64,000 nucleotides of DNA from Halovivax gelatinilyticus (GTDB lineage: Archaea; Halobacteriota; Halobacteria; Halobacteriales; Natrialbaceae), in assembly GCF_024300625.1 (NCBI RefSeq), contig NZ_CP101322.1:819992-883991 (forward strand). The letters run 5' to 3'. Both the position numbers and the translations under genes were made by a program. Within the stretch, counting starts at the first letter, position 1, and every line of letters begins with the position of its first letter. Below the pieces are notes generated by a model. It did no database searches. It was not told where the DNA came from and worked only from the letters and a program-made list of their open reading frames with translations. Positions 45,247 to 53,945 of this stretch are shown piece after piece.

Positions 45247-46914
45247 GTGTCACCCGTGAGTCGTGAGCTTCGCGTCCTCGGAATCGAGGGCACGGCCTGG
45301 GCGGCCAGCGCCGCCGTCTACGATTGCGCGACCGATTCTACGTTCATAGAGAGCGACGCCTACCAGCCCGAAAGCGGCGGCATTCACCCCCGCGAGGCCG
45401 CAGAGCACATGCACGACGCGATTCCCAGGGTGGTAGAGCGTGCGCTCGCGTACGCGCGAGAGCTCGCAACGGACGACCCCTCGACGGACGCGCCGGTCGA
45501 CGCCGTCGCGTTCTCGCGCGGTCCGGGCCTCGGGCCCTGTCTGCGAATCGTCGCGACGGCCGCCAGAGCGCTCGCCCAGACGCTCTCGGTCCCGCTGGTC
45601 GGCGTCAACCACATGGTCGCCCACCTGGAGATCGGCCGCCACGCCGCCGACTTCGACGATCCGGTCTGTCTGAACGCGAGCGGGGCGAACGCCCACCTGC
45701 TCGCCTACCGAAACGGCCGCTACCGCGTCCTCGGCGAGACGATGGACACCGGCGTCGGCAACGCGATCGATAAGTTCACCCGACACGTCGGCTGGTCTCA
45801 CCCCGGCGGCCCGAAAGTCGAGGCGGCCGCAACGGACGGCGAGTACGTCGAGCTACCCTACGTCGTCAAGGGAATGGACTTCTCGTTTTCGGGAATTATG
45901 TCGGCGGCGAAGGCCGCCTACGACGACGGGACGCCCATCGAGGACGTCTGCTTCTCGCTTCAGGAGACCATCTTCGCAATGCTGACGGAGGTCTCAGAGC
46001 GAGCCCTGTCGCTGACGGGAAGCGACGAACTCGTCCTCGGCGGGGGCGTGGGCCAGAACGTCCGGCTCCGGGAGATGCTCGCGACGATGTGTGACGAACG
46101 GGACGCCGCGTTTTTCGCGCCCGAGTCGACATTCCTCCGGGACAACGCCGGCATGATCGCCGTGTTGGGCGCGAAGATGTACGAAGCCGGCCAGACGCTC
46201 CCGATCGAGCAGTCGCGAGTGGATCCGGATTTCCGCCCGGACGAGGTGGACGTAACCTGGCGCCAGGGGGACGGACGGCCCTCCAGCGAGCCGGAACCGG
46301 CCGAACGGGTCGTTGACGGCGCCGAGGCCGTCGTGACGGTCGACCGCGAGGCCGGACGCGTCACGAAACGACGCGTGGCGAAACCCTACCGTCACCCCGC
46401 CCTCGACGAGCGACTTCGCCGGGAGCGGACGGCGATCGAAGCGCGACTGACGAGCCAGGCCCGACGCGTCGGCGTGCCGACGCCGGTCATCGCGGACGTC
46501 GACCCCTACGCCGGAACGATCGAATTCGAATTCGTCGGGGAGCGCGATCTGCGCGACGGGCTCACCGTCGACCGCGTCCGCGACGTGGGCCGGCACCTGG
46601 CGGCGATCCACGACGCCGGCTTCGTCCACGGCGATCCGACGACGCGAAACGTCCGCGTCGACGGAGACGCCGAGGTCGGCGAAATCACGTCGGATCGCAC
46701 CTCTCTCATCGACTTCGGCCTGGGCTATCACACCGACCACGTCGAAGATTACGCGATGGATCTGCACGTCTTCGACCAGAGCCTCGTGGGGACGGCGAGC
46801 GAGCCCGAACCCCTCCGCGAGGCGTTTCTCGAAGCTTATCGCGCGGCCGGCTCGGAGACGGTACTGGATCGGCTCCGCGAGGTCGAGGGCCGCGGCCGCT
46901 ACGTCGGCGGGTGA
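45247..46914 (+). CDS. Fused tRNA t6A protein Kae1 and kinase Bud32
   Basis: A 555-residue fusion. Residues 1-330 are Kae1, the enzyme that transfers threonylcarbamoyl to A37 of ANN-decoding tRNAs (RVLGIEGTAWAASAA, AFSRGPGLGPCLRI; metal-binding His near 122 and 126 in NHMVAHLEIGRH; LGGGVGQNVRL). Residues from about 345 are the Bud32 kinase/ATPase (KPYRHPALDERLRRERT; GFVHGDPTTRNVRVD catalytic loop; LIDFGLGYHT metal loop). Together they make two of the KEOPS subunits. The start is GTG at 45247, or GTG at 45256. It follows rps24e-rps27ae, as in many archaea. Confidence 0.96.
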   Translation: MSPVSRELRVLGIEGTAWAASAAVYDCATDSTFIESDAYQPESGGIHPREAAEHMHDAIPRVVERALAYARELATDDPSTDAPVDAVAFSRGPGLGPCLRIVATAARALAQTLSVPLVGVNHMVAHLEIGRHAADFDDPVCLNASGANAHLLAYRNGRYRVLGETMDTGVGNAIDKFTRHVGWSHPGGPKVEAAATDGEYVELPYVVKGMDFSFSGIMSAAKAAYDDGTPIEDVCFSLQETIFAMLTEVSERALSLTGSDELVLGGGVGQNVRLREMLATMCDERDAAFFAPESTFLRDNAGMIAVLGAKMYEAGQTLPIEQSRVDPDFRPDEVDVTWRQGDGRPSSEPEPAERVVDGAEAVVTVDREAGRVTKRRVAKPYRHPALDERLRRERTAIEARLTSQARRVGVPTPVIADVDPYAGTIEFEFVGERDLRDGLTVDRVRDVGRHLAAIHDAGFVHGDPTTRNVRVDGDAEVGEITSDRTSLIDFGLGYHTDHVEDYAMDLHVFDQSLVGTASEPEPLREAFLEAYRAAGSETVLDRLREVEGRGRYVGG

Positions 46915-47010
46915 GCCCTCGAATCGACCGAGTCGCGATCGGGGCGTCTCCGCTCGCGTGCGTCGCGCCGGCACACAATACTCTTGACACCCGGGGTCGT
47001 AACGGACAGT

Positions 47011-47289
47011 ATGGCAGACAAACCGACTTCCGGAGAGATTCTCGGGATTCCGTACAACTTCGATCGACCGAGCATCGGGCGCATGCTCTCGTCGTACTGG
47101 CAGCCGGGCAAGGGGATGCTCGTCGAGAAGCCGTTCGGCGTCGGCTACACGCTCAATCTCGCCAACTGGCGCTCGTGGCTGGTCGTCGGCGTCGCCGCCG
47201 TCTTGCTCTGGCAGGAGAGTACCGACACCGGCGCCGACGAGACGGAAGACTCGGGCGAGCCGGTCGAAGTACTCGTCGACGACGAGTGA
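47011..47289 (+). CDS. DUF5808-like small membrane protein
   Basis: A 92-residue haloarchaeal protein. The first 60 residues (SGEILGIPYNFDRPSIGRML ... QPGKGMLVEKPFGVGYTLN) match the DUF5808 pattern, followed by one membrane-like helix (WRSWLVVGVAAVLLW) and an acidic tail. The function is unknown. The ATG at 47011 is 18-30 bases downstream of an ACAATACTCTTGAC stretch that may contain the promoter. Confidence 0.8.
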   Translation: MADKPTSGEILGIPYNFDRPSIGRMLSSYWQPGKGMLVEKPFGVGYTLNLANWRSWLVVGVAAVLLWQESTDTGADETEDSGEPVEVLVDDE

Positions 47290-47391
47290 GCATCGGACTG
47301 GACGAGCGTTGATTTTTCGAGTTCGGTTCTATCGGAGTCGTCTCCCGGCGGACCGAGAACGGCCGTCGGGTCGATAGTCACCGACCAGTCG

Positions 47392-47580
47392 CTACCGGAT
47401 CGGCCGTTCGCCGTCCTCGCAGAGTTCGAGCATCCCGATCCCGGCGAGACAGTCGAGACAGATGGTGCGCTGGACGTCCCGGAACCGATGGACGACGTCG
47501 CGTCGGTGGGTCGCAGAGAGGCGGACTCGGCCGCCACGACGCGTGCCACCGCAGCGATAGCAGGCCGACCCGTCGGTCAT
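47392..47580 (-). CDS. Small zinc-finger protein
   Basis: A 62-residue protein with two CxxC knuckles, CYRCGGT near residue 7 and CLDCLAG near 41, spaced as in a zinc ribbon, plus one more cysteine near 53. Small zinc-finger proteins of this kind are abundant in haloarchaea and often affect gene expression, but this one is not assigned. The sequence between the knuckles is basic (RRGGRVRLSATHRRDVVHRF), which suits nucleic-acid binding. Confidence 0.7.
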   Translation of the reverse strand: MTDGSACYRCGGTRRGGRVRLSATHRRDVVHRFRDVQRTICLDCLAGIGMLELCEDGERPIR

Positions 47581-47687
47581 CCACCGACCACCCCATCGAT
47601 CGAAGAATCCAAGCTACAGCCGGATCGGAGCTGACGCTGGCGATACCACAGACGTGCGAGAGCTTTTTGTCCCGGTGGTTTGTACGC

Positions 47688-47695
47688 AATTATGG
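47688..47695 (+). promoter_or_regulatory. TATA-like box of the predicted RNA gene
   Basis: AATTATGG lies 22-29 bases before the first base of the closing stem of the predicted RNA. This is the expected spacing for an archaeal TATA box and RNA start. No open reading frame begins at this distance. Confidence 0.5.
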
Positions 47696-47716
47696 CGACT
47701 AAATCCGCTTCGGGTT

Positions 47717-47847
47717 TGGAAGCCACGTCTCGGGTGCACCACCCGGGACATTTCTACGCAGGAGATTGCTCCTGCGGGGTCCAAAAGAGCGGCGCTCTTT
47801 TGAGGACTGCACATGTCCCCGCGTCAGTTGTGTAGCGTGGCTTCCAA
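47717..47847 (+). ncRNA. Predicted multibranched structured RNA (131 nt)
   Basis: The ends form a perfect 12-bp stem (TTGGAAGCCACG at 47717-47728 with CGTGGCTTCCAA at 47836-47847). Inside, four hairpins follow with few unpaired bases: 47729-47737/47741-47749 (9 bp with one G-U), 47757-47764/47769-47776 (8 bp), 47779-47782/47804-47807 plus 4783-type inner stem 47783-47790/47794-47801 (4 and 8 bp), and 47808-47813/47829-47834 (6 bp with one G-U). This is a five-way junction with its own TATA box. It does not look like tRNA, 5S, SRP, RNase P or a box C/D RNA. A foldback mobile element with inverted ends is the alternative. Confidence 0.55.
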
Positions 47848-48154
47848 TTACTGCATAGACATCAGTTAGTATATATCATCTAGTGGCTGTTCGGGAGTGA
47901 GGGGATTTCACAGAATGTTCGACAGTGCTCGATATTCTGACCTGGGCACGGGACCAACCGTCGGGTCGCAAGACCAAGTACGGATAGACCGTTATGGAGC
48001 GGCGAACGCTTCGCCAGGCGCTAGCGTCCGGTGGTTGTCACAGACAGCACACGCTACGTACAGGAAAAGCAGTTATCGGAATGACCACCGATGTCTATTT
48101 TAGAGAGTTAGTCTGAATGAGGCCGAACAAGGGGTACGTCGGTCGGATAGTTTG
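47848..48154. other. Gene-poor, less GC-rich spacer
   Basis: No credible gene is seen between the predicted RNA and the first regulator. There is an A/T-rich TTAGTATATATCATC at about 47866-47880, and TCTATTTTAGAGAG near 48093. The composition differs from the GC-rich blocks on both sides, which suggests acquired DNA. Confidence 0.5.
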
Positions 48155-48562
48155 TCACTCGTATGCGTCGTACGGCTCGAAAAGTGTCAGGAGATCCCGT
48201 TCCAGTTCACCGCCAATAAACTGGACGAGCCCCGCCTCGGTCTCGCAGTCGATTATCCGGAGCTCCTCCAGTTTTGGGAGATGGGTATGGTGAAGCGCGA
48301 TGCGGACGCGTCGGCGATGCTCATCGGATTTTCGCTCAGCGTCTTTGTCTCGAACCCTGTCTGCAACCCGGTCTACGAGCGCATCGTGTGTTAGTGTCTT
48401 CTCCGATGTGCTAGTCAGTGAGTTGAGGATGGCCCGTCGGTGTTCGTTCGCTACTGCCGATAGAAGCCTATCGGGGGAAAGAGGGCTCGATCGTTCCGTT
48501 GAACTGGAAATATCGTCGATCTGTTGTAGATCACGTACTCTTCGCTCTCGGTTCTTATCCAT
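48155..48562 (-). CDS. DUF7344-like winged-helix protein
   Basis: A 135-residue protein with a winged-helix region, PDRLLSAVANEHRRAILNSL, followed by a DUF7344-like pattern (HRRRVRIALHHTHLPKLEELRIIDCETEAGLVQFIGG). Such haloarchaeal proteins are thought to be transcription regulators. The ATG at 48562 is chosen because a CCATGG-type site at 48599-48614 and a GAATAGAA TATA-like element lie upstream in the 67-base gap to the preceding gene; the longer frame would overlap the HTH-10 gene. It follows that HTH-10 gene on the same strand. Confidence 0.75.
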   Translation of the reverse strand: MDKNRERRVRDLQQIDDISSSTERSSPLSPDRLLSAVANEHRRAILNSLTSTSEKTLTHDALVDRVADRVRDKDAERKSDEHRRRVRIALHHTHLPKLEELRIIDCETEAGLVQFIGGELERDLLTLFEPYDAYE

Positions 48563-48598
48563 ACTCACAGTGAGGAATCCCAACTGCCTGGTTCTATT

Positions 48599-48614
48599 CC
48601 ATGGTACACAATGG
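48599..48614. promoter_or_regulatory. HTH-10 cluster palindrome, copy 1
   Basis: CCATGGTACACAATGG: seven-base arms around AC, six of seven positions complementary. It lies 36-52 bases before the DUF7344-like ATG and just upstream of its TATA-like element. Three more copies precede neighbouring regulator genes. Confidence 0.55.
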
Positions 48615-48629
48615 AGTCGGCCAATTCGC

Positions 48630-49286
48630 TTATGGCTCTGGTTCGGGGGTGAGCAGTGTATGCCTGACGAACGCACCGATGGCACGCCGCAGCCGTTCGG
48701 TCACCGCTTGATCGGAAATCTCGAGTTCGGCCGCGAGCTCCTCGGTCGTACAGCCTCGTGGAATGTCGTAGTATCCCATCCGAACAGCAAGCATGAGGGC
48801 TTCTCGTTGTGGCTCGCTCAGGCCGTACCACGGACCAGCGCCTGGGTCCGTGGGATTGTACACCCGAATGAGCTCCAGGGATATGTGTGTCTCCTCACAA
48901 CAGGCTTGAGCCCGAGACAAGGCCTTACGGTGGGGAAATCGCAGCTCGAAATCCCATCCTTCTGACGTTCCGGTCGCGCTCAATATCTGCCCCTCGTGGT
49001 TCAAGATGCATTGAAAGAGATGATCCTGGCTCGCATCCCAATCCAGCCTGAACAGCGTTCGATCTCCGAACACTTCCATCTCCGTTACGCTGTTGACCGT
49101 TGGATAGCGTTCGACGGCTTCGAGAAACCCGTCTCCGACCGGTTCGTAGACCCAGAAGAGCGGTACGGTAGCATCACCACTCGGGACGAGCGTTTCGAGC
49201 TCGATGGCCGACGCCTCGTCGAGACTGAGAATCTGCCCGAGTTCGAAATCGTCGGGCGGTATTCGGACTTCCGTTATCACACTCAT
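48630..49286 (-). CDS. HTH-10 (Bat-type) transcription regulator
   Basis: A 218-residue regulator with the N-terminal sensing domain of bacterio-opsin-activator relatives (VITEVRIPPDDFELGQIL ... LFWVYEPVGDGF) and the C-terminal HTH-10 domain (LSEPQREALMLAVRMGYYDIPRGCTTEELAAELEISDQAVTERLRR). It is a distant paralogue of the two plus-strand genes that follow. It is divergent from 49476 with 189 bases between them. Its signal and targets are unknown. Confidence 0.88.
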   Translation of the reverse strand: MSVITEVRIPPDDFELGQILSLDEASAIELETLVPSGDATVPLFWVYEPVGDGFLEAVERYPTVNSVTEMEVFGDRTLFRLDWDASQDHLFQCILNHEGQILSATGTSEGWDFELRFPHRKALSRAQACCEETHISLELIRVYNPTDPGAGPWYGLSEPQREALMLAVRMGYYDIPRGCTTEELAAELEISDQAVTERLRRAIGAFVRHTLLTPEPEP

Positions 49287-49332
49287 ACTCGCTTATGGGA
49301 ATAGGTTGCGCTGGAGCGTACAAAAGAAGGAT

Positions 49333-49348
49333 ACATGGTGTACCATGT
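49333..49348. promoter_or_regulatory. HTH-10 cluster palindrome, copy 2
   Basis: ACATGGTGTACCATGT: perfect seven-base arms around GT. It lies 47-62 bases before the ATG of the minus-strand HTH-10 gene, in the divergent intergenic region it shares with the plus-strand paralogue. Confidence 0.6.
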
Positions 49349-49426
49349 CCACCTAGGGCGCTCCACATTCGTCCAGGTGCAGAATACACAACACCGCTCA
49401 GTTATCGCCCTCCCAGAGCTTTAAAA

Positions 49427-49442
49427 CCATGGCACACCATGG
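49427..49442. promoter_or_regulatory. HTH-10 cluster palindrome, copy 3
   Basis: CCATGGCACACCATGG: seven-base arms around AC, six of seven complementary. It ends 33 bases before the ATG at 49476, abutting the TATA-like GTTATCC at 49446-49452. Confidence 0.6.
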
Positions 49443-49475
49443 CCAGTTATCCGTCCCTGGTGTGAGCGTTCTCGT

Positions 49476-50117
49476 ATGGCAACTGAGATGGCATTCACCG
49501 TCCCAGCCGAGGACTTTCCGCTGGGAAGTATTTTCGAGAACGTACCTGGAGTGACGGTCGAGTTGGAGCGACTCATTCCACACGAGACGCTGACAAATCC
49601 GTACTTCTGGGTGCGTGGCGCAGAAACTGGGGAGATCGAAACCGAGTTCGAACCACACGAGGGCGTGGCGGACATCCGACTGGTCGATCACATCGAAGAC
49701 GAGTATCTCTTGCGCGCTGAGTGGGTTCGAGAATACGACGGGCTGTTGACTGCGCTGTCAGAGACGAATCTAACCGTTCTCTCGGGGGTCGGAACAGTTG
49801 ACGGGTGGCGCTTCGAGGTCCGCGGGGACACTCAAGAAGCAATCGCTGAATTTCGGACTCACTACCAGGAAAGTAGTATTTCAATCGACATTTCGATGGT
49901 CCACGCATTGCTCCCGATTCAAGGAGATAGCTTCGAGTTGACCGAAACCCAGCGAGAGGCACTGGTATTGGCCTACGAGCGTGGCTACTTCGATACGCCA
50001 CGCGAGTCGTCGCTCGAAGTGATCGCTGCTGAGATCGGTATTACCCAGCAGTCGCTGTCTTCTCGGCTCCGACGCGGGCATCGACGCCTCATCAGTGAGA
50101 CACTCACCACCCCGTAG
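49476..50117 (+). CDS. HTH-10 (Bat-type) transcription regulator, paralogue A
   Basis: A 213-residue regulator: N-terminal domain MATEMAFTVPAEDFPLGSIF ... LERLIPHETLTNPYFWVRG, C-terminal HTH-10 domain LTETQREALVLAYERGYFDTPRESSLEVIAAEIGITQQSLSSRLRRG. By eye it is roughly two thirds to three quarters identical to the next gene, and the DNA is also alike, so the pair arose by a recent tandem duplication. The ATG is 24-30 bases downstream of a TATA-like element and a CCATGG-type palindrome. Confidence 0.9.
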   Translation: MATEMAFTVPAEDFPLGSIFENVPGVTVELERLIPHETLTNPYFWVRGAETGEIETEFEPHEGVADIRLVDHIEDEYLLRAEWVREYDGLLTALSETNLTVLSGVGTVDGWRFEVRGDTQEAIAEFRTHYQESSISIDISMVHALLPIQGDSFELTETQREALVLAYERGYFDTPRESSLEVIAAEIGITQQSLSSRLRRGHRRLISETLTTP

Positions 50118-50297
50118 AACTATCGTAGCTCTTGAAAGTCACCGGACATCCGATCGCAAGAAAGCGTTGCAATCGGTGTGTATATCGGTTCGAGAGCTAC
50201 TATACGAGTGAGTGTAGCACTGTTCAACCATTCTGTTCGGAAATCAGTACGAACGAGGCGTCGCAGACAGTGCAGATGGGACAGTTCGCGTTGGGAT

Positions 50298-50313
50298 CCA
50301 TGGTACACCACCC
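50298..50313. promoter_or_regulatory. HTH-10 cluster palindrome, copy 4 (half-site)
   Basis: CCATGGTACACCACCC: the left arm and centre match the other copies but the right arm is degenerate. It lies 37-52 bases before the ATG at 50350, just upstream of the TATA-like GATTATTCG. Confidence 0.5.
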
Positions 50314-50349
50314 CTGGCGATTATTCGTTTGCCAGACGAAGGACTCCGC

Positions 50350-50994
50350 ATGGCGACCGTCATGGAATTTACGAGTCCGGCAGAAGAGTTTCCACTGGGC
50401 AGCATCTTCGAGAATTTGCCTGGCGTGACGGTCGAGTTGGAACGACTGATCCCCCACGAAACGCTGATCATCCCGTACTTCTGGGTGCGTGGTTCAGAAA
50501 CGGGGGACATCGAAGCCGAATTCGAGTCACACGAGGGCGTGACGGACATCCGACTGGTCGATAGCATCGAAGACGAGTACCTGATGCGCGCAGAGTGGAT
50601 GCAAGAATACTTCGGCATTCTGAGTGCACTGGCCAAAGCCAATGTTGTCGTACTCTCTGGGATCGGAACGAAAGACGAGTGGCGATTCGAGGTGCGCAGC
50701 GAAAGTCAGGAAGCGATCGCAGAGTTTCGAGAGTACTGTCTGGAAAACGACATCCCGATCGAGATCACCGCTGTCCACGCCATGCTTCCAATCCAGGGGG
50801 AGGGATACGAGCTGACCGAAACCCAGCGTGAAGCACTGGTATTGGCCTACGAGCGTGGCTACTTCGACACGCCACGCGAGGCGTCGCTCGAAGAGATCGC
50901 AGCCGATCTCGACATCACCCAGCAATCGCTTTCCTCACGACTCCGCCGCGGGCATCGACGCCTCATTGGAGCGACCCTCGCTAGTTCGTCGTGA
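50350..50994 (+). CDS. HTH-10 (Bat-type) transcription regulator, paralogue B
   Basis: A 214-residue near-copy of the preceding regulator (MATVMEFTSPAEEFPLGSIF ... LTETQREALVLAYERGYFDTPREASLEEIAADLDITQQ). The start is set at the ATG at 50350 by alignment with paralogue A and by a TATA-like box 24-31 bases upstream; an in-frame codon at 50329 would include that box. The two copies are separated by 232 bases with no gene. The duplicates share almost the whole recognition helix, so they probably bind the same DNA sites while their sensing domains have begun to differ. Confidence 0.9.
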   Translation: MATVMEFTSPAEEFPLGSIFENLPGVTVELERLIPHETLIIPYFWVRGSETGDIEAEFESHEGVTDIRLVDSIEDEYLMRAEWMQEYFGILSALAKANVVVLSGIGTKDEWRFEVRSESQEAIAEFREYCLENDIPIEITAVHAMLPIQGEGYELTETQREALVLAYERGYFDTPREASLEEIAADLDITQQSLSSRLRRGHRRLIGATLASSS

Positions 50995-51075
50995 GTTTCT
51001 GGCGACTCTCCATTTAAACCCACTGTATAATCAGTAGGCTTGCTAAACCGATTCAGGCGGCTAGAACGGGTAGAT

Positions 51076-51426
51076 ATGAACACGATGGTGGCTGGGGTTG
51101 GCGTAGAAGAGATCGAGTATCATCAGGAAACTGGGACTGTTCGGACGCAGTTCGATGGAGCGAAGACCCCCGCAAGCACGGCTGTTGTCGCAACGCTGGC
51201 GGACGTGATGGACGCAGATCCGGTAGAACTGGACCCGTTGTATTCTACTGTCGACCCAGAGGCGTTAGATGCGCTCGTCCGCGTCCGAAACGAAACGGAT
51301 GGGGATATCCACTCCACATTCATCCACGAGGATCACGCGATAACCGTCTACAGCTACGGCGTGATCACCGTCACACCAGGGCACGAGCCTGCCGCGGAAA
51401 AGTACGGGAGGAACGTGGGAAGATGA
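51076..51426 (+). CDS. HalOD1 output-domain protein
   Basis: A 116-residue stand-alone HalOD1 domain: STAVVATLADVMDADPVELDPLYSTVDPEALDALV, then a beta hairpin part ending ITVYSYGVITVTPG. HalOD1 is an output domain seen at the end of haloarchaeal response regulators; free-standing copies are common and their mode of action is unknown. The ATG at 51076 or 51085 is the start. Its stop overlaps the next ATG by four bases. Confidence 0.82.
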   Translation: MNTMVAGVGVEEIEYHQETGTVRTQFDGAKTPASTAVVATLADVMDADPVELDPLYSTVDPEALDALVRVRNETDGDIHSTFIHEDHAITVYSYGVITVTPGHEPAAEKYGRNVGR

Positions 51427-51608
51427 CGTCTGAGGTGGCTCCAGTCACGTCGAAAGCGGAATTGAACGCGGAGCTAAAAGCGCTCCTTGTCAGGGCCTAC
51501 GAGAACGGAATCGATGTAGAAGGCGGATTCGAATGCCGGAACGGAGTCGAACATCCCGACTGGGACGTGATCGTCACCGAAGTCGAAAAGAACGACCGTT
51601 CGGCGTGA
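51423..51608 (+). CDS. Small conserved haloarchaeal protein
   Basis: A 61-residue acidic protein (SKAELNAELKALLVRAYENGIDVEGGFECRNGVEHPDWDVIVTEVEK). I recognise it as a recurring haloarchaeal small protein but know no function. It is translationally coupled to the HalOD1 gene through an ATGA overlap, so the two likely act together. Confidence 0.72.
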   Translation: MTSEVAPVTSKAELNAELKALLVRAYENGIDVEGGFECRNGVEHPDWDVIVTEVEKNDRSA

Positions 51609-51682
51609 GCAACTGCGCGGGTGACCGGAACGGTAGTAGGGTATAGAACCGTGAGTGCCGCACCAGCGACCGAGTCGAACGC

Positions 51683-51961
51683 GTGCTCTCAGCCCAACAG
51701 CGGCGAGTCTTATGTGCGTTACTGAGTGATGATTCGAGACGTGCAGATCCGATATTTCGTGACGGAGAGAAACTCGGCTCCGAGGAGCACCTCACGGTCT
51801 GTTACGAACTCCACCACGTCCTGCTTCCCGAACTATCGGATGCGGGGCTCGTCGAGTTCGACAGGTTTGAAGACAAGGTACGGCGAGGACCGAAATTCGA
51901 CGAGGTACGTCGGTTTTTTGAACAGACCGTTGCCGATCATGACGAGTACCTGGACCTGTAA
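51683..51961 (+). CDS. Putative DUF7344-type winged-helix protein, possibly truncated
   Basis: A 92-residue protein with a winged-helix look: LSAQQRRVLCALLSDDSRRA, EEHLTVCYELHHVLLPELSDAGLVEFDRFEDKVRRGP. The order resembles the DUF7344-like gene at 48155. Only a GTG start is available; the frame upstream is open for 12 more codons without a start and then hits a stop. It may therefore be a trimmed remnant of a longer regulator or a genuine short gene with a GTG start. Confidence 0.55.
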   Translation: MLSAQQRRVLCALLSDDSRRADPIFRDGEKLGSEEHLTVCYELHHVLLPELSDAGLVEFDRFEDKVRRGPKFDEVRRFFEQTVADHDEYLDL

Positions 51962-52244
51962 TCGCTTCTGCTGCTTAATGCGTGCTTTAGGGCTTGCACG
52001 ACTCCCAGAAAGTCTAGCAGAATTAGTAGCGTCCTCCGCGATCGATACGCACGTTGGTTGCACCACGCACCGAACGAGTTTCCGTCTACCGACCGAGGCG
52101 ACGTGGTCGGGTAGACCGCCTCCCGCAGTTCCAACGGCTCGCACAGCATCTGCGATCGAACGGATCGATTGACCGACACCGGATCTACGGCGTCCTACCA
52201 TCACCTGAAGACGAGAGTCTGACGATCGATCCCGCACCGACGTC

Positions 52245-53945
52245 TCACCGGTCGACCTCGCCCATGATGCAGTCGAGACTACCGATCGCGGCTATCAGAT
52301 CGGCGACGTACTCGCCGCGGACGAGTTCGGGCAGCGCCGAGAGGTTCGAGAACGACGGGCCGCGGATTTTGAAGCGAGCGGGTTTCTGCGAGCCGTCAGA
52401 GCGGATGTAGATGCCGAGTTCGCCCTTCGCGGCCTCGACGGCGCGGTAGAGTTCGGCGTCGGCGGGCGGCTTTAGCGTCCGCGGAACGGCGGACTGGACC
52501 TCGCGGTCGTCGGCCGGCCAGTCTTCGAGTCGATCGAGACACTGGCGGACGATCCGGGCCGATTGTTCGACTTCGCTCATCCTGACGAGGAGACGGCTGT
52601 AGTTGTCACCGTCGGACTCGGTGACGACGTCCCACTCGAGGTCGGGGTACAGCCCGTACGGGTCGTCCCGGCGGAGGTCGTAGTCGACGCCCGAGGCGCG
52701 GGCGACGGGACCGGTGCAGCCGTATTCCCGGGCGGTCTGAGCGTCGAGAACGCCGCGACCGACGGTTCGCAATTGGAAGATCTCGTTACTCGTGAGCAGT
52801 TCGTGGTACTCGTCGAGTTTCTCGGGGAGTTCGTCGAGGAGGGTTCGCGCCGCCTCGACGAATTCGTCGCGGGGTTCGGGCAAGTCCCAGGCGACGCCGC
52901 CGAGTCGCAGGTAGTTGAACATCACGCGCTGGCCGGTGAGGCGCTCTAAGAGGTCGAGAATTAGTTCCCGGTCGCGCATGGCGTACTGGAACGCGGCGGT
53001 GAACTCGCCGACGACGTCGAGCGCGTACGTGCCGAGCGCGATGAAGTGCGACGCCATCCGCGAGAGTTCGGCGCCCATCGTTCGGATGACACGCGCGTAT
53101 TCCGGCACCTCGATGTCCGCCAGGTCCTCGGTCGTGCGGGCGTAGGCCCACTCGTTGAGCAGGCCGGAGGAAACCCAGTCCCAGCGGTCGGGGTAGGGCA
53201 TGATCTGGTGGCGGTACGTACAGGATTGACAGAGTTGCTCCTCACAGCGGTGGATGTAGCCGATATCCGGGTCGACATCGACGACGGTCTCGCCGTCGAG
53301 GACGGTCCTGACGTGGAGGACCCCGTGGGTCGAGGGGTGGTGCGGACCGACGTTGAGAACCATCGTACGCTGCCCGCGCTCGTCGCCGGCGAACGGGTTT
53401 TCGTGTTCGGCGAACCGGACGATCTGGGGCTGATCTCGATCGTAATCGGGAGCGAGCGGATGGCCCTGCCAGGTCTCGGGAAGGAGGATGCGCCGGAGAT
53501 CGGGGTGGCCCTCGTACTCTATGCCGAGGAGGTCGTAGGCCTCGCGTTCGTGCCAGTTCGCGGTCGGGTAGACCGGCGCGGCCGACTGGCTCCGCGGGTC
53601 GCAGACGGGAACGGGAACCACGACGCTCAGTTCGCGGGTGGGGTCGGCGTAGCTCCGCAGGTGGTAGATCGTCTCGTAGCGGTCGTCGGCGGCCTGGGCG
53701 GTGACGCAGGCGCAGTGATCGAGACCGGCGTCGGTCTTGCAGCGTTCGAGGACGGCCCGTACCTCGTCGGGCCGGGCGACGACCGCCGGGGCGTTCAGGT
53801 GGTCGTCGCGGTCGAGAACGTACTCGCCGAGCAGGGCCTCCCACTCGTCGGTCGGGTCTGTGTCTGTCTCAGTGAGAAGTGACCCACCATCGGTTCTCGT
53901 CGGAAGCCGGTCGGACGACGAATCGGGTGCAGGTGGTTCGGACAT
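52245..53945 (-). CDS. nuoCD: NADH dehydrogenase-like complex subunit CD (NuoCD), stand-alone copy
   Basis: A 566-residue fusion. Residues 1-180 are NuoC (DHCACVTAQAADDRYETIYHL, WHEREAYDLLGIEYEGHPDLRRILLP) and the rest is the 49-kDa/NuoD subunit (NVGPHHPSTHGVLHVRTVLDGE, PDIGYIHRCEEQLCQSCTYRH, PYPDRWDWVSSGLLNEWAYA). NuoD forms the quinone pocket of complex I. The full haloarchaeal nuo operon normally carries this gene between nuoB and nuoH, but here no other nuo gene is nearby. It could be an extra copy or a relocated one. The C-terminus GSLDCIMGEVDR is complete. The ATG at 53945 has a TATATAT about 60 bases upstream. Confidence 0.88.
   Translation of the reverse strand: MSEPPAPDSSSDRLPTRTDGGSLLTETDTDPTDEWEALLGEYVLDRDDHLNAPAVVARPDEVRAVLERCKTDAGLDHCACVTAQAADDRYETIYHLRSYADPTRELSVVVPVPVCDPRSQSAAPVYPTANWHEREAYDLLGIEYEGHPDLRRILLPETWQGHPLAPDYDRDQPQIVRFAEHENPFAGDERGQRTMVLNVGPHHPSTHGVLHVRTVLDGETVVDVDPDIGYIHRCEEQLCQSCTYRHQIMPYPDRWDWVSSGLLNEWAYARTTEDLADIEVPEYARVIRTMGAELSRMASHFIALGTYALDVVGEFTAAFQYAMRDRELILDLLERLTGQRVMFNYLRLGGVAWDLPEPRDEFVEAARTLLDELPEKLDEYHELLTSNEIFQLRTVGRGVLDAQTAREYGCTGPVARASGVDYDLRRDDPYGLYPDLEWDVVTESDGDNYSRLLVRMSEVEQSARIVRQCLDRLEDWPADDREVQSAVPRTLKPPADAELYRAVEAAKGELGIYIRSDGSQKPARFKIRGPSFSNLSALPELVRGEYVADLIAAIGSLDCIMGEVDR

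Follow-up and report, generated by a model that had tools for sequence, protein, structure and literature searches.

Four promoters in one gene cluster of the haloarchaeon Halovivax gelatinilyticus carry CCATGG-type palindromes, which raises the question of whether a protein of the cluster reads them and, if so, which one. The cluster occupies ~48.1-51.6 kb of the window (the whole 64,000-nucleotide stretch of DNA that was analysed), on a 3.70-Mb haloarchaeal chromosome, and comprises six genes, here called A to F. A preliminary description of this DNA had placed the palindromes before four HTH-10 regulator genes with very similar recognition helices, and had proposed that the cluster regulates itself and its neighbours through them.

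A six-gene cluster with a rare palindrome

The genes and promoter features are the following.

48155..48562, minus strand: gene A, DUF7344 winged-helix protein, 135 aa (Pfam PF24035, E 2.5e-16)
48599..48614: candidate operator of gene A, CCATGGTACACAATGG; degenerate in the start-distal half
48630..49286, minus strand: gene B, BAT + HTH-10 regulator (Pfam), 218 aa; proposed palindrome binder
49319..49325, minus strand: putative TATA-like box of gene B, TTTTGTA, directly after the palindrome
49333..49348: candidate operator of gene B, ACATGGTGTACCATGT, core CATGGTGTACCATG; cluster-type relatives have it at -45 to -49
49427..49442: candidate operator of gene C, CCATGGCACACCATGG
49476..50117, plus strand: gene C, BAT + HTH-10 protein, 213 aa; close paralogue of D (75% identical)
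50298..50313: candidate operator of gene D, CCATGGTACACCACCC; on the TATA side the conserved half is CACCACCC
50350..50994, plus strand: gene D, BAT + HTH-10 protein, 214 aa
51076..51426, plus strand: gene E, HalOD1-domain protein (Pfam PF18545); no palindrome in front
51423..51608, plus strand: gene F, 61-aa protein; its start overlaps the E stop (ATGA)

B, C and D combine an N-terminal BAT domain (PF15915; 42.4, 41.9 and 45.4 bits, above the cut-off of 25.8) with a C-terminal HTH_10 domain (PF04967; 60.8, 62.3 and 63.6 bits, above the curated cut-off of 23.1), the latter having 36 matches in this genome. The predicted structure of B (pLDDT 82) has a helical HTH at its end, and a structure search with it returned a partial match only (5m86, TM 0.47). 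Gene F has no Pfam or NCBIfam match; its predicted fold, one helix and two strands, gave no fold or PDB match in a structure search. No Rfam family matched within 46500-53000. Beside the cluster, at 47719-47846, an element of ~128 bp has inverted ends (GGAAGCCACG...CGTGGCTTCC) and contains inner stems. Portions of the element, mostly its ~40-bp end, recur at ~20 other genome matches; it looks like a small mobile-element remnant and has no Rfam match.

All four 16-mers are present in the sequence, so that the palindromes themselves are real. The genes behind them are HTH-10 regulators in three cases, B, C and D; the fourth, A, is the DUF7344 winged-helix gene. From the TATA-side edge of the 16-mer to the start codon there are 36 (A), 46 (B), 33 (C) and 36 (D) bases, and an AT-rich box stands close behind each: GAATAGAA for A, CTTTTGTA for B, TTAT for C and ATTATT for D. 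Searched with at most one mismatch, CATGGTRYACCATG has three matches in the 3.7-Mb genome, all at cluster palindromes. Two mismatches raise this to 10 matches, four of them in the cluster; since the reversed control pattern gives 12, the six non-cluster matches are at background level. At the outside-cluster rate, the probability that one 70-bp promoter bears such a site is ~1e-4. The palindrome is not frequent elsewhere in the genome, as the proposed self-regulation presupposed.

The palindrome accompanies B across haloarchaea

In a set of 391 haloarchaeal genomes, with the reversed pattern as control, the exact core has matches in 56 genomes (control, 4 matches), and the looser CWTGGTRYACCAWG has 96 matches versus 26 for the control. 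Among the matches listed, 79 of 93 fall in the 200 bp before a B homologue, as counted with the 150 listed B homologues, where chance would give ~2e-5 per match. Because loci fetched by the motif are a biased sample, a reverse test was run on 60 loci picked by similarity to protein B alone. The strict core, with at most two mismatches, occurs in the upstream 200 bp of 46 of these loci, and shuffled sequences average ~5.2 mismatches. The 46 include B genes without A, C and D, and for most of the distant B loci (44-55% identity) a similarity search placed none of A, C, D or E beside B. Thirteen further loci have 3-4 mismatches to the strict core; the last (L181, B 49% identical) has five and no recognisable site.

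Counted by promoter, a site with at most two mismatches is found before B in 113 of 124 cases (shuffles, ~0.4%) and before A in 45 of 59. Checked in one-paralogue genomes, B-type genes without C or D retain the palindrome. By sequence comparison, a putative operator is conserved at B's own promoter among relatives, and since the same site stands before nearly every relative of that regulator, the palindrome is very probably the binding site of a cluster regulator. One B homologue found by similarity search (L143, G355:C11:29146-29793) has one in-frame TAA, possibly a pseudogene or a start-site artefact.

The site follows the recognition helix

If the palindrome is read by B, its occurrence should follow the DNA-recognition element of that protein. 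C and D have identical recognition helices (TQQSLSSRLRRGH), and the helix of B differs (SDQAVTERLRRAI). The B helix, SDQAVTERLRR in this genome, is near-invariant as SDQA.TERLRR in 120 homologues, down to 44% identity: S191, Q193, A194 and T196-R201 are 100% identical and D192 is 99% identical. The one variable position is V in 89%, and much of the remaining protein stands at ~60% per column. In the structure model (pLDDT 82) this stretch begins the last long helix.

Eighteen HTH-10 proteins that are 30-39% identical to B carry different helices, and the 100 bp next to their starts hold no site at two or fewer mismatches. Four B-type proteins from Haloarcula rara, which has two B copies, Halosimplex pelagicum and Natronomonas aquatica combine the helix with the site; in one case the site has three mismatches. 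On this comparison the candidate operator follows the predicted DNA-recognition element. The view that one helix, and hence one site, is common to all HTH-10 proteins does not survive the alignment of B with C/D and with the 18 other-helix proteins; the site tracks the B type, and HTH-10 proteins with another helix are without it.

Conserved promoter layout and graded sites

The sites share the consensus C[A/T]TGGTRYACCA[A/T]G, a 14-base palindrome. In relatives the B site is mostly perfect, its end falling at -45 to -49 where the cluster is present, and the C promoters of relatives have a perfect or near-perfect site at -34. The A promoters of relatives keep the degenerate CATTATRCACCATG at -37, and D orthologues most commonly have CATGRTACACCACC at -37. 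As the imperfections of the A and D sites are conserved across species, these are not decayed copies. An AT-rich hexamer most often starts 9 nt past the B site and 7 nt past the C and D sites, and both the spacing to TATA and the operator variants are conserved in relatives. The site adjoins the predicted BRE/TATA region, as in UAS-type haloarchaeal activator sites. In some B promoters (L146:2130-2200, L148, L149, L029) a second palindrome follows 33 bp after the first, in the stretch from TATA to the start codon, and loci with B alone often have two palindromes 27-28 bp apart, both upstream of TATA. In the D operator the conserved form of the TATA-side half departs from the palindrome, and its reader may be another protein or D itself.

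Alternative readers of the palindrome

C and D, perhaps as heterodimers with B, might also bind, at least at the D-type CATGRTACACCACCC, the paralogues competing for or sharing operators. Such binding would be compatible with a B operator, and we regard it as possible though rather unlikely. The C/D helix, different from that of B, is likewise near-invariant, but palindromes stand at B genes that have neither C nor D, and no more than 3 of 21 C/D-type genes without B nearby bear a site with at most two mismatches. The strongly conserved CACCACCC half before D and a genome (G075) that retains the D-type site and yielded no B-type protein are set against two genomes (G138, G282) in which D is present, no B-type protein was found and the CATGRT half is lost.

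The DUF7344 winged-helix protein A would be an improbable binder in place of B. B is followed on its own strand by a DUF7344 gene in 80 of 120 loci, but the palindrome is also found among the other 40, which have no such gene (in a few it has the opposite orientation). An unlinked DUF7344 gene (L301, below) carries the palindrome at its own promoter, yet the DUF7344 partners are very diverse in sequence, whereas site and B helix are constant.

A reading of the palindromes as features of the core promoter, of RNA or of restriction sites without a dedicated regulator, or as chance, is scarcely credible: they do lie beside TATA-like boxes, and CCATGG is a common restriction site, but the site is rare genome-wide, is linked to a single gene family across 391 genomes, with the reversed pattern as control, and is absent before other HTH-10 genes and before E (0 of 59 E promoters at two or fewer mismatches), so that a general promoter feature is rejected.

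A proposed B-dependent circuit

We propose that the palindrome serves the B-type BAT/HTH-10 regulator as its operator, through which B autoregulates its own gene and co-regulates A, C and D-E-F; on the sequence comparisons above we consider this highly likely. The sites, their positions and conservation, the link to B and the near-invariant helix are seen at the level of sequence, and from there we infer direct binding of B to the palindrome. A putative B dimer would dock on both half-sites, immediately ahead of the BRE/TATA region. Docked B would autoregulate its own gene and co-regulate its neighbours A, C and D-E-F, with E and F presumably read from the D promoter. The graded quality of the sites, perfect at B and C and with one half degenerate at A and D, may lead to a graded response. 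Most A and D sites have that degenerate half, which is poorer for a symmetric dimer and counts against this scheme. Activation is slightly favoured as the mode of action, because the placement beside BRE resembles that of known haloarchaeal activator sites (GvpE). The second palindrome between TATA and start codon in some relatives would suit self-repression at high B. The earlier idea that the cluster regulates itself and its neighbours through the palindrome is strongly supported by a site that is rare and is kept at lone B genes.

B and its partners as a possible wider module

Of 120 B loci, 106 encode a homologue of F divergently from B. Where the cluster is lacking, F lies directly opposite B across an intergenic region of 120-370 bp; in cluster loci it closes the D-E-F run, ~1.2 kb from B. 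The arrangement of F opposite B in non-cluster loci suggests that the cluster is an expansion of an older F-B core, and it looks like one. The F family itself (~61 aa, GGWECRN...PDWDVVVTEVEK) is a conserved divergent partner of B across haloarchaea.

Fourteen listed sites are not upstream of a listed B gene, and most of them are single. Two of them, in G292 and G378, lie closely downstream of a B gene. An unlinked DUF7344 gene (L301:1144-1518, minus strand) has a perfect palindrome at 1506-1519 in a genome with B elsewhere, and its promoter is likely a distant target of the regulator. Two genomes of a single genus have isolated CATGGTATACCAAG sites close to sulfur-metabolism-like genes (L298:1501-1514 and L299:1534-1547). 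A wider regulon through these sites, one before a monooxygenase-like gene (L298) and one after a sulfhydrylase-like gene (L299), was considered, and they probably reflect chance.

More tentatively, and with somewhat less than even confidence, we suggest that the B regulator and F, often with DUF7344 and HalOD1 proteins, form a widespread haloarchaeal signalling module. It would be an almost closed autoregulatory circuit, with an operator rare outside module promoters; the cluster would be its tandem-expanded form, with graded operators that are conserved and with C and D tuning B or competing with it.

Relation to known regulators and significance

The haloarchaeal HTH-10 regulators Bat, DmsR and NarO have the HTH-10 DNA-binding domain in common with B (PMC11218638, PMC7824242). 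NarO and DmsR are described as without PAS and GAF domains (PMC11218638), and B, with its BAT-associated domain, is likewise without PAS or GAF. These regulators control energy-metabolism genes, whereas the recognisable targets of B are its own cluster. The semi-palindrome CGAAYATDKTYG of Hfx. mediterranei denitrification promoters is unrelated to the B palindrome (PMC10062603).

The UAS of GvpE consists of two 8-nt elements separated by 4 nt, and GvpE sites next to BRE serve in activation (PMC4390858). Like the B site, it is a dyad adjoining the BRE/TATA of divergent regulator promoters, with feedback on the regulator's own operon; GvpE, however, is leucine-zipper-like, unlike the HTH-10 protein B, and its UAS motif differs from the B palindrome. 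CsmR of Haloferax volcanii, an Lrp/AsnC-like protein with the site TATCA(N4)TGATA and a wide motility regulon (PMC13286277), resembles B as a haloarchaeal regulator with a semi-palindromic site beside promoter elements, but differs from it in protein, motif and regulon. Gene E shares the HalOD1 domain with DdfA, a protein of cell-shape control (PMC10869688); its match to the DdfA equivalog (NCBIfam NF053557) reaches 49.2 bits, below the cut-off of 70, so that E is not assignable to it and no link of E to cell shape is shown.

HTH-10 regulators as such are already known, and so are haloarchaeal regulators with promoter-proximal sites. For the palindrome in an archaeal setting we found no report in the openly readable literature, where the matches were unrelated. 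To our knowledge, few haloarchaeal HTH-10 proteins have a known binding site, though the genomes carry many HTH-10 genes. The present comparison matches a candidate operator of defined sequence to one defined HTH-10 subfamily class-wide, which makes site and helix a directly testable pair, and it offers a regulatory setting for three uncharacterised families, DUF7344, HalOD1 and protein F.
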